A DNA stretch of 64,000 bases from Halococcus qingdaonensis. GTDB lineage: Archaea; Halobacteriota; Halobacteria; Halobacteriales; Halococcaceae. Location of the stretch: positions 2,143,112 through 2,207,111 of the forward strand of contig NZ_CP101943.1 in the NCBI RefSeq assembly GCF_024508235.1, given 5' to 3'. The notes beneath the pieces are model-generated. The model made no database searches. It was not told the DNA's origin and saw only the letters and a list, made by a program, of their open reading frames with translations. The position numbers were made by a program, and so were the translations under genes. Of this stretch, positions 30,120-33,126 are shown piece by piece (position 1 is the stretch's first letter; every line of letters starts with the position of its first letter).

Positions 30120-30443
30120 CAACGGTCGCAGCCGCCGGCTGCGGCCGGCGGTGCGGTTGCGGTGCGGGCCTGGCGTCTCGGCGAGCGGCGCGAGCCGAGG
30201 CTCAGGAGAGCATAGCCCTCCTGGTGGATGAAGGGCGAGATCGCGAACGAAGTGAGGGAGCGAGGGCTTCTGCGCTGCTGTGTGGTTTGCGGAAAGCCAG
30301 CATCCGCGCGAGTGGAACGAGCGCGGTTCACCGCGAACGAGCGCAGCGAGTGAGCGGGAAGTTTTTCATGAACGTTTTTGCAAGCGGGGGTCGGGCGAGC
30401 GAACGTGGTGAGCGAGCGCGACCCCCGCTTGCAAAAACGTTCA
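30120..30443 (+). repeat. Intergenic hairpin cassette, copy B
   Basis: Occupies nearly all of the 341-base gap between thiL and cmi4. The first 80 bases are Gly-codon-like GCGG repeats, then the module TCCTGGTGGATGAAGGGCGA...GAGGGCTTC, hairpin 1 CCGCGC-GAGTGGAACGA-GCGCGG (30304-30326), TTCA, hairpin 2 CCGC-GAACGAGCGCAGCGAGTGA-GCGG, GGAAGTTTTTCATGAACG, and an end hairpin whose arms are a perfect 25-bp inverted repeat (30369-30393 with 30419-30443). The right arm includes the cmi4 stop codon. It resembles copies C and D. Confidence 0.85.
30433..30437 (-). terminator. T5 tract 3 bases after the cmi4 stop
   Basis: On the minus strand TGA-ACG-TTTTT-GCAAGCGG: the tract is inside the right arm of the 25-bp inverted repeat. 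Archaeal RNA polymerase ends on T-rich tracts, so this probably ends cmi4 transcripts. Confidence 0.55.
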
Positions 30444-31031
30444 GAGCGAAAGCTCGTTCTCCATTCCTTCGGTCGCCTCGTCGAGCCCGTCGCGAGTGAC
30501 GTCGTCGGTGTGGCTGGCGAGGTCGGCGTCGAGATAGATCTCGTCGAAGGCTTCGCGGAAGCGATCGCCGACGGCGCGGCGGGCGGCCTGCGTTTCGGCG
30601 ACGCGGCGGTGGCGTTCGACGGTTTCGGGGCTGGTGTCGAGGTCGGCGGCGACCGTCGCGACGTCGGCGTCGGCGAGGCGGTCGCGGAGCTCGCTCGGTT
30701 CGATCGGGCTGTCGGTCTCGCGCTCGCGGACGAGGTGGAGCGCGAGGCGGGTGCGTTCGACGGTTTCGGTGGTGGTGTCGAGCGATTCGGCGATGGAGTC
30801 GTCGTCCGCGCCCGCGTAGAACGCCGCGACGAGGTCGACGCGCTGGGCGTCGTCGAGGCTCGTCGGGAGGTCGTAGCGGTCGGCCATCGCCGTGATGACA
30901 TCCGCGGTGCGTTCCTCGGTCGAGCCGTCGCGCGTGAGCGAGCCGCGCACGTCCTCTTGGTGTTCGGTCACGGTCGACTCCTCGGTGACGTCGATGAAGA
31001 TGTCGCGTAGCGATTCCGTTTTCTCGTCCAT
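30441..31031 (-). CDS. cmi4: Conditioned-medium-induced protein 4 (Cmi4)
   Basis: A 196-residue acidic cytoplasmic protein. It begins MDEKTESLRDIFIDVTEEST and contains two similar helix-turn-helix-like blocks (DDSIAESLDTTTETVERTRL and VATVAADLDTSPETVERHRR), both with the D-T-(S/T)-x-E-T-V-E-R core. I recognise the haloarchaeal family annotated as conditioned medium-induced protein 4. The repeated HTH suggests DNA binding, but no role is established. Its stop codon lies inside cassette B. Confidence 0.8.
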   Translation of the reverse strand: MDEKTESLRDIFIDVTEESTVTEHQEDVRGSLTRDGSTEERTADVITAMADRYDLPTSLDDAQRVDLVAAFYAGADDDSIAESLDTTTETVERTRLALHLVRERETDSPIEPSELRDRLADADVATVAADLDTSPETVERHRRVAETQAARRAVGDRFREAFDEIYLDADLASHTDDVTRDGLDEATEGMENELSL

Positions 31032-31093
31032 CAGTGGGGGACCGAACTGTCGGCGAGCTATCGGTAAAAGCCTGCCGCCGGCAACAGCGCGTT

Positions 31094-31123
31094 CGTCAAC
31101 CGATCGTATTATATGGGTTGACG
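31094..31123. promoter_or_regulatory. BirA-like biotin operator over the bioY promoter
   Basis: CGTCAACC (31094-31101), 14 bases, then GGTTGACG (31116-31123): a perfect 8-bp inverted repeat. Bacterial and archaeal BirA operators have half-sites of the form GTnAACC...GGTTnAC separated by 14-16 bases. The spacer holds the TATA-like TATTATAT about 27 bases before the bioY ATG, so a bound repressor would cover the promoter. Confidence 0.75.
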
Positions 31124-31136
31124 GAAGGGTGGATGT

Positions 31137-31718
31137 ATGAGCATCGAGAACACCGACACCGAACTCGTCGGCGACGAAGTGGTGAGCAACCTCGCCCGTG
31201 CAGCGCTGTTCGCCGCTCTGACCGGCGCGTTCGCCTACGTGAGTTTTCCGAACCCGATCTCGCCCGCACCGGTGACGCTGCAGGTCCTCGGCGTCTTCCT
31301 GTCCGGGATCTTCCTCGGGCCGCTGTGGGGCGGCGTGGCCTGCGGGCTGTATCTGCTCGCGGGCGCGCTCGGCGCGCCGATCTTCGCCGGCGGGGCGGCG
31401 GGGATCGGCGTTCTGGTCGGCCCGACGGCCGGCTATCTGCTCTCCTATCCGCTCGCGGCGGCCGTCATCGGGGGCGTCGTCCACGGTGGTCGCACACCCG
31501 TCGATCCGGGAGCGGTTGGGCTCGGTCGACTGGTCGGCGGGCTGGCGCTCGGCACGGTCGTGATCTACGCGATCGGCGTGGCCGGGATGATGATCGTCCA
31601 GAATCTTGGGCCCGTCGAGGCGTTTCTCGTCGGCGCGGCGGTGTTCATTCCAGCCGAGATCGTGAAGATCGCCGCCGCCGTCGGCATCGTCCGCAGCGAC
31701 GTAATGACCGCTGCATGA
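31137..31718 (+). CDS. bioY: BioY, biotin-binding S component of an ECF transporter
   Basis: A 193-residue membrane protein with about six helices. Typical BioY segments: LARAALFAALTGAFAYVSFP, PVTLQVLGVFLSGIFLGPLW, and GAPIFAGGAAGIGVLVGPTA followed by GYLLSYPLAA. It captures biotin at the outer face. Start ATG at 31137; the stop overlaps the ATPase start (ATGA). A putative biotin operator covers the promoter. Confidence 0.93.
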   Translation: MSIENTDTELVGDEVVSNLARAALFAALTGAFAYVSFPNPISPAPVTLQVLGVFLSGIFLGPLWGGVACGLYLLAGALGAPIFAGGAAGIGVLVGPTAGYLLSYPLAAAVIGGVVHGGRTPVDPGAVGLGRLVGGLALGTVVIYAIGVAGMMIVQNLGPVEAFLVGAAVFIPAEIVKIAAAVGIVRSDVMTAA

Positions 31719-32428
31719 TCGAGACGCGTGGGCTGACCTTTCGGTACGGGAGTGACGAATCGGGTGCTCCGGCCGTCGACGACGTCTCGCTCACGATTCG
31801 GGATGGCTCGTTCGTCGTGCTCGCCGGCCCGAACGGGTCGGGCAAATCGACGCTCGTCCGACAGTTCAACGGGCTGCTCGAACCCGACGCGGGGAGCGTG
31901 TCGGTGAACGACCAACCTGTCGACGAGAACGTCGTGGCCGCCCGGACGGCCGTGGCGATGACGTTTCAGGACCCCCGCGACGGGTTCGTCGCCGCGACGG
32001 TGGCCGCCGACGTCGCCTTCGGGCCGGAGAACCTCGGACTCGCGAGGGGGACGATCGACGAGCGTGTCGCGGACGCGCTCGCGGCGGTACGGATGGACGG
32101 GCGCGGTGACGAGCGCATCGATCGGCTGTCGGGGGGTGAGCAGGCACGCGTCGCGATCGCGGGCGCGCTCGCGATGGAGCCCGACCATCTCGTGCTCGAC
32201 GAGCCGTTCGCCGGGCTCGATCAGCCGGCACGCGAGTCGGTGCTCTCGCGGCTGGAAGCGCTCGGTGAGGCGGGAACGGGGATCGTCGTCGTCACGCACG
32301 ATCTGCGGGATCTGCTCGCGCTCGCCGACCGCGTGCTCGTCATGAACGAGGGGCGCGTGGCGCTCGATGCGGACCCCGAACGCGCGCGCGAACAGTTGTC
32401 GGGCCTCGCCGTTCGCGCACCGTGTTGA
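31715..32428 (+). CDS. ECF transporter ATPase (BioM type)
   Basis: A 237-residue ABC ATPase. Walker A GPNGSGKST (about 40-48), Q-loop MTFQDPRDGF, signature LSGGEQARVAIAGAL, Walker B HLVLDEPFAGLD and the switch histidine in VVTHDLRDLL. The Q-loop DP and the Walker B-proximal LD fit EcfA proteins. A single ATPase probably forms a homodimer, as in BioMNY. Overlaps both neighbours. Confidence 0.92.
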   Translation: MIETRGLTFRYGSDESGAPAVDDVSLTIRDGSFVVLAGPNGSGKSTLVRQFNGLLEPDAGSVSVNDQPVDENVVAARTAVAMTFQDPRDGFVAATVAADVAFGPENLGLARGTIDERVADALAAVRMDGRGDERIDRLSGGEQARVAIAGALAMEPDHLVLDEPFAGLDQPARESVLSRLEALGEAGTGIVVVTHDLRDLLALADRVLVMNEGRVALDADPERAREQLSGLAVRAPC

Positions 32429-33126
32429 GCTACGAGCCAGGAGGATCGATCGCCCACCGACTCGACCCACGGGCGAAACTCGCCGTGCAGGTGGGGTTCG
32501 CGCTCGCGGCGTTTTCCCACACCAGCCCGCGCGGGCTCGCGATCGGAACGGTGCTCGCGGGCGTCGTTCTCGTGGTCGCGGAACTCCTCCCGCAGGTCGC
32601 CGTCTGGGAGGTTCGCTACGCGCTCCCGTTCGTGCTCGCCGGACCGCTGCTCGCCGCGTTCTCGCCGGCTCCGCCGTGGATCGTCCCCGCCGAGGCGATC
32701 GCGCCGGCGCTCGCGAGCTATCGCGTCCTGCTCGTGTTGGTCGTGAGCGTCGCGTACGTCAGGACGACGCCGGTGCGCGATTCGCGAGCGGCCATCCAGC
32801 GACTGCTGCCGGGGCGATTCGGACGGCTCTGTGGCGTCGGCGTGGCGCTCGTCTTCCGCTTTCTACCGGTGGTACTCGCCGATCTCTCGCGGGCGCGGGC
32901 GGCGATGCGGGCGCGCCTCGGAAGCGAACGCTCGCTCGCCGAACGGATGAAACTCGTCGCCATCGCGGGCGTTCGCCGTGCGGACATGCGGGCCGACAGG
33001 CTCGCGGTGGCGCTCCGTGCCCGCTGTTTCGCCTGGAACCCGACGCTGCCGGCGCTGCGGTTCGCCGCGCTCGACGGTCCTGCCCTCGCGTTCGCGCTCG
33101 TGCTGTTCGTCTGGGCGCTGCTGTGA
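32422..33126 (+). CDS. ECF transporter transmembrane protein EcfT (BioN type)
   Basis: A 234-residue membrane coupling protein. It starts LSYEPGGSIAHRLDPRAKLA, the EcfT signature region (HRLDPRxKL), has about four to five helices, and ends with coupling helices containing the Ala-Arg-Ala/Gly-type motifs (SRARAAMRARLGSE and LAVALRARCF). The start is a GTG at 32422 that overlaps the ATPase stop by seven bases; an ATG does not occur nearby. Completes the bioY-M-N transporter. Confidence 0.88.
   Translation: MLSYEPGGSIAHRLDPRAKLAVQVGFALAAFSHTSPRGLAIGTVLAGVVLVVAELLPQVAVWEVRYALPFVLAGPLLAAFSPAPPWIVPAEAIAPALASYRVLLVLVVSVAYVRTTPVRDSRAAIQRLLPGRFGRLCGVGVALVFRFLPVVLADLSRARAAMRARLGSERSLAERMKLVAIAGVRRADMRADRLAVALRARCFAWNPTLPALRFAALDGPALAFALVLFVWALL

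Follow-up and report, generated by a model that had tools for sequence, protein, structure and literature searches.

A predicted BirA operator at the bioYMN promoter of Halococcus qingdaonensis and its conservation in haloarchaea

Introduction

The bioYMN genes of Halococcus qingdaonensis are preceded by an inverted repeat enclosing a TATA-like element, and the question arises as to whether this repeat is a regulatory site and, if so, which protein is likely to recognize it. The repeat was analyzed in the window (the whole 64,000-nucleotide stretch of DNA presented above), in the complete genome and in other haloarchaeal genomes. A previous sequence-only reading of the window had proposed that a biotin-protein-ligase repressor shuts off biotin import here. 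Since the sites are conserved, an HTH-containing BirA is encoded in the genome and the operator and the HTH have been lost together, the palindrome is very probably the operator of the repressor BirA, and can be predicted with great confidence to be the switch shutting off biotin acquisition.

In 2002, Rodionov, Mironov and Gelfand (reportedly in Genome Res 12:1507) are said to have predicted a BirA regulon common to bacteria and archaea, bioY included, in which the HTH on BirA reportedly goes with the operators. No paper dealing with the haloarchaeal operator was found among the open-licence literature. The bacterial BirA signal is quoted in another paper (PMC545781) as TTGTAAACC-N14/15-GGTTTACAA.

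Results

The Palindrome and the bioYMN Operon

The predicted operator is the inverted repeat CGTCAACC-N14-GGTTGACG at positions 31094-31123, to which no strand is assigned. As read directly from the sequence, it consists of a left arm CGTCAACC (31094-31101), a spacer of 14 bases GATCGTATTATATG (31102-31115) and a right arm GGTTGACG (31116-31123), the two arms being perfect reverse complements. All 12 fixed positions of the BirA pattern (GTnAACC half-sites 14-16 bp apart) are present, with a spacer of 14, so that the half-sites and spacing previously read at exactly this place hold good. No second exact copy exists in the genome: GTCAACC-N12-18-GGTTGAC matched once in the window, vs. 0.00 times expected from 100 dinucleotide shuffles, and once in the whole 2.70-Mb genome, where the reversed-pattern control gave no match. 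When up to 3 mismatches were allowed, the 54 genome matches were near the background (46 for the control), and there is therefore no appreciable family of weaker sites in this genome. The most promoter-like near match, at position 906831 of the genome, adjoins no biotin gene and was rejected.

The spacer contains a TATA-like element, TATTATA (about 31108-31114, plus strand), which is probably the TATA box of bioYMN, as the sequence-only reading had supposed. The center of the palindrome lies 28.5 bp upstream of the bioY ATG (31137), the distance expected in the case of a leaderless haloarchaeal transcript.

The genes downstream, all on the plus strand, form one operon with overlapping starts and stops. 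They consist of bioY (31137..31718, 193 aa), encoding the biotin-specific S component of an ECF transporter (PF02632 BioY, E 5.7e-34), bioM (31715..32428, 237 aa), encoding the ECF ATPase (PF00005, 2e-29; TIGR04520, 1.4e-66), the start of which overlaps the bioY stop (ATGA), and bioN (32422..33126, 234 aa), encoding the T component (PF02361 CbiQ, 7.7e-13). A BioY S component adjoined by an ATPase and a T component is the composition of the BioMNY ECF biotin transporter. The BioY sequence is 96% identical to that of Halococcus morrhuae and 94% identical to that of H. thailandensis, and these identities place the organism close to both species. The gene divergent from bioY (30441-31034, minus strand, about 197 aa), which starts about 60 bp away, matched no Pfam family.

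BirA in the Same Genome

An operator of this kind calls for a BirA with an N-terminal HTH, and the genome search yielded one: a single gene (G000:C1:917381-918295) encodes a complete BirA with HTH_11 (8e-12), BPL catalytic (1e-19) and BPL_C (8e-10) domains, which is the architecture of Group II biotin protein ligases. The alignment of this protein with E. coli BirA (33% overall) extends over the HTH, and its recognition helix, SRAAVWKHIEALREAG, is near-identical to that of the E. coli protein, SRAAINKHIQTLRDWG. The two further PF03099 matches in the genome are both weak and may correspond to lipoate-type ligases. The region upstream of birA itself showed no operator, and none of the ten birA loci scored carried an 11-12/12 site. 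Since bioB was not found in this genome (the best match reached only E 1e-4), the regulon is probably restricted here to bioYMN; several congeners have bioB.

Conservation of the Operator Upstream of bioY

The bioY gene is present in 277 of the 292 genomes of the class. In a sample of 160 bioY upstream regions from 11 haloarchaeal families, the best GTNAACC-N12-18-GGTTNAC in each region was scored at 12 fixed positions, reversed sequences serving as the control. The palindrome was found before the orthologous bioY genes in 157 of these 160 regions, with 10-12 of the 12 positions conserved (12/12 in 98 regions, 11/12 in 56 and 10/12 in three), and the best scores were 9, 8 and 7 in the three others. 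Among the reversed sequences, 2/160 reached 10 and none scored higher. Twenty-six of the 160 regions had already been picked up by an exact-pattern scan; the fact that 131 of the remaining 134 carry the operator indicates that the choice of the sample did not determine this result. The two congeners G044 and G073 have only 10/12 versions, which is a point against the assignment to BirA.

The haloarchaeal consensus is TCGTnAACC-N14-GGTTnACGA. Alignment of the operators gave about 2 bits of information for most positions in the arms and nearly 0 bits for the flank upstream, and the spacer is AT-rich (63% vs. 39%) with a conserved core, T14 T15 n A17. In 107 of the measured cases, 28-29 bp separate the center of the operator from the start codon, and a leaderless haloarchaeal promoter needs a TATA-like core at the position given by this spacing. 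The same scoring procedure picked out GTAAACC-N16-GGTTTAC in the bioA/bioB control region of E. coli MG1655.

bioB as a Probable Second Target

The full-pattern scan, which covered 67 genomes, yielded 59 sites in 47 of them, nearly all of which were at bioY or bioB. Fifteen of these sites are at the start of bioB, encoding biotin synthase (TIGR00433, E 1.6e-100). In all 30 of the bioB loci scored, an 11-12/12 repeat with a fixed location overlaps the start, whereas the control did not exceed 9, so that the repeat is located at the promoter in 157/160 cases at bioY and in 30/30 at bioB. At bioB, the distance from the beginning of the repeat to the start of the match is 19 or 22 bp; the repeat lies directly downstream of a TATA-like element (68% AT in the 14 bp before the repeat), and its spacer is not AT-rich (50% AT). 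Since the repeat is placed differently relative to the promoter at bioB and bioY, it is probably a protein-binding site rather than a promoter element.

The off-target sites at L025, L026, L027, L036 and L267, where no biotin gene was seen, look like chance occurrences. The site at L267 (positions 2039-2066, G129) is a perfect operator-like GTCAACC-N14-GGTTAAC located between two genes with no evident biotin role.

Joint Loss of the HTH and the Operator

Among the genomes screened, an alignment of BirA starting only at residues 58-60 was found in G124 and G173 alone, which belong to one genus. Genomes without an alignment range were judged by their scores, which, with E values of about 1e-95 or better, are too high for an HTH-less BirA. 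The reading frames of BirA in G124 and G173 matched no HTH model in Pfam, and the absence of this domain is also visible in the alignment. The low BirA scores obtained in many other genomes, which had suggested further losses, turned out to be due to split or divergent full-length matches. In both G124 and G173, the bioY operator is missing: where BirA lacks the HTH, the operators are therefore absent, in the one genus available for this comparison. This genus is a natural knock-out. However, since a single genus is involved, the two losses amount to one evolutionary event rather than to independent replicates, which counts against the strength of the argument.

In a third species of this genus (G293, locus L314), bioYM occurs without an operator; the BirA comparison covers G124 and G173. 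In the BirA sequences of G124 (L245) and G173 (L253), the glycine-rich ligase loop QTGGRGRLDR, which is conserved in the other haloarchaeal BirA proteins aligned, is changed into QTAPRGRGDR and QTAPRGREGR, respectively.

Apart from G124 and G173, the bioY operator is missing from the 160 regions only in G136, where bioY is a divergent gene (L316:2451-3149) located between dnaK and dnaJ; this genome keeps the HTH-BirA and an operator at bioB. In both G136 and G260, the HTH-BirA is kept and the search yielded no bioY-like gene other than a divergent one (36-38% identity) with no operator, which also counts against a strict association. BirA is absent, or represented only by a weak HTH-like match, in 13 of the 15 genomes lacking bioY, in agreement with the absence of both bioY and BirA reported in H. 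utahensis (PMC3102087).

Discussion

The repressor reading of this locus is supported by the HTH-BirA encoded in the genome, the 157/160 bioY sites, the bioB sites and the co-loss; we infer BirA binding, its ligand dependence, the direction of regulation and the steric mechanism by analogy. Some other transcription factor sensing biotin or the status of the carboxylases might bind the palindrome instead, since haloarchaea have many HTH regulators and the assignment of the site to BirA is indirect. This is very improbable, however, given that the half-sites fit the bacterial BirA signal, E. coli control included, that the recognition helices are nearly identical in haloarchaeal and E. coli BirA, and that the absence of the operator coincides with the loss of the HTH from BirA.

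Even less credible is the idea that the palindrome might be a core promoter element (the BRE/TATA context) which is palindromic by chance: the TATA-like element is certainly enclosed by the repeat at bioY, but at bioB the repeat lies downstream of that element, over the start codon, and a sequence so rare and specific (almost all of its 59 sites, found in 47/67 genomes, belong to bioY or bioB), which is absent before bioY in three species of one genus, does not behave like a part of the promoter. One might also imagine that BirA activates instead of repressing, or that its target is the divergent gene (30441-31034), since the direction of regulation is deduced and that gene starts about 60 bp away; but an operator around the TATA box or over the start site is in the position of a repressor at archaeal promoters, and the operator here encloses the TATA box or covers the bioB start and tracks unlinked bioY and bioB genes across families. 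This possibility can practically be set aside.

The picture of BirA as the repressor is in line with known bacterial systems. As in the case of E. coli BirA and bioO, the half-sites are an inverted GTnAACC/GGTTnAC repeat and the bifunctional HTH-ligase is homologous over its length, whereas the spacer is 14 here and 16 in E. coli (by the same count), one outer arm base is C here and T in bioO and in the bacterial signal, an archaeal TATA/TBP promoter lies inside the haloarchaeal operator, and the target is an importer; the spacer length and the outer base count against the assignment. The BirA of Bacillus subtilis has operators at the bioW operon, yuiG and yhfU, and gel shift assays have shown that its binding requires biotin and ATP (PMC4016012). 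As in that species, a single repressor would serve biotin synthesis and BioY-type importers, although the promoters are bacterial and the demonstration experimental there, and the conclusions reached here are deductive. In view of the homology with the E. coli and B. subtilis proteins, holo-BirA can be expected to act as a repressor, bound to the repeat in dimeric form.

With an ample supply of biotin, BirA would make biotinyl-5'-AMP and, once few acceptor domains of carboxylases remain to be modified, holo-BirA would dimerize, its two winged HTH domains binding the two GTnAACC half-sites. Since the TATA-like element lies between these half-sites, the dimer would keep TBP/TFB off the bioY promoter, thus silencing bioYMN; under biotin shortage, it would dissociate and the importer would be made. 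In relatives with bioB, the second copy of the operator, over the bioB start and just downstream of its TATA-like element, would allow the dimer to block the polymerase rather than TBP.

The signal, the bioY target and the rule linking the HTH to operators match the BirA regulon predicted in 2002 in bacteria and archaea. What the present, unusually well supported case adds to that prediction is the universality of the system in the haloarchaea as a whole, bioB as a second target with a geometry of its own, the mostly fixed position of the TATA-like element inside the bioY operator, and the genus-level co-loss with the HTH. It is therefore likely, although with less confidence than in the case of the operator itself, that BirA is a practically universal, ancestral haloarchaeal repressor which shuts promoters in two ways (TBP exclusion at bioY and polymerase exclusion at bioB), and that the system decays as a unit once the HTH is lost.

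A short palindrome thus leads to a testable class-wide regulon consisting of one repressor and one or two targets per genome, with a natural HTH-less control genus. It would provide a simple genetic system in Haloferax for studying how a repressor also present in bacteria acts on TBP/TFB promoters, and a candidate biotin-responsive promoter for use in haloarchaea.
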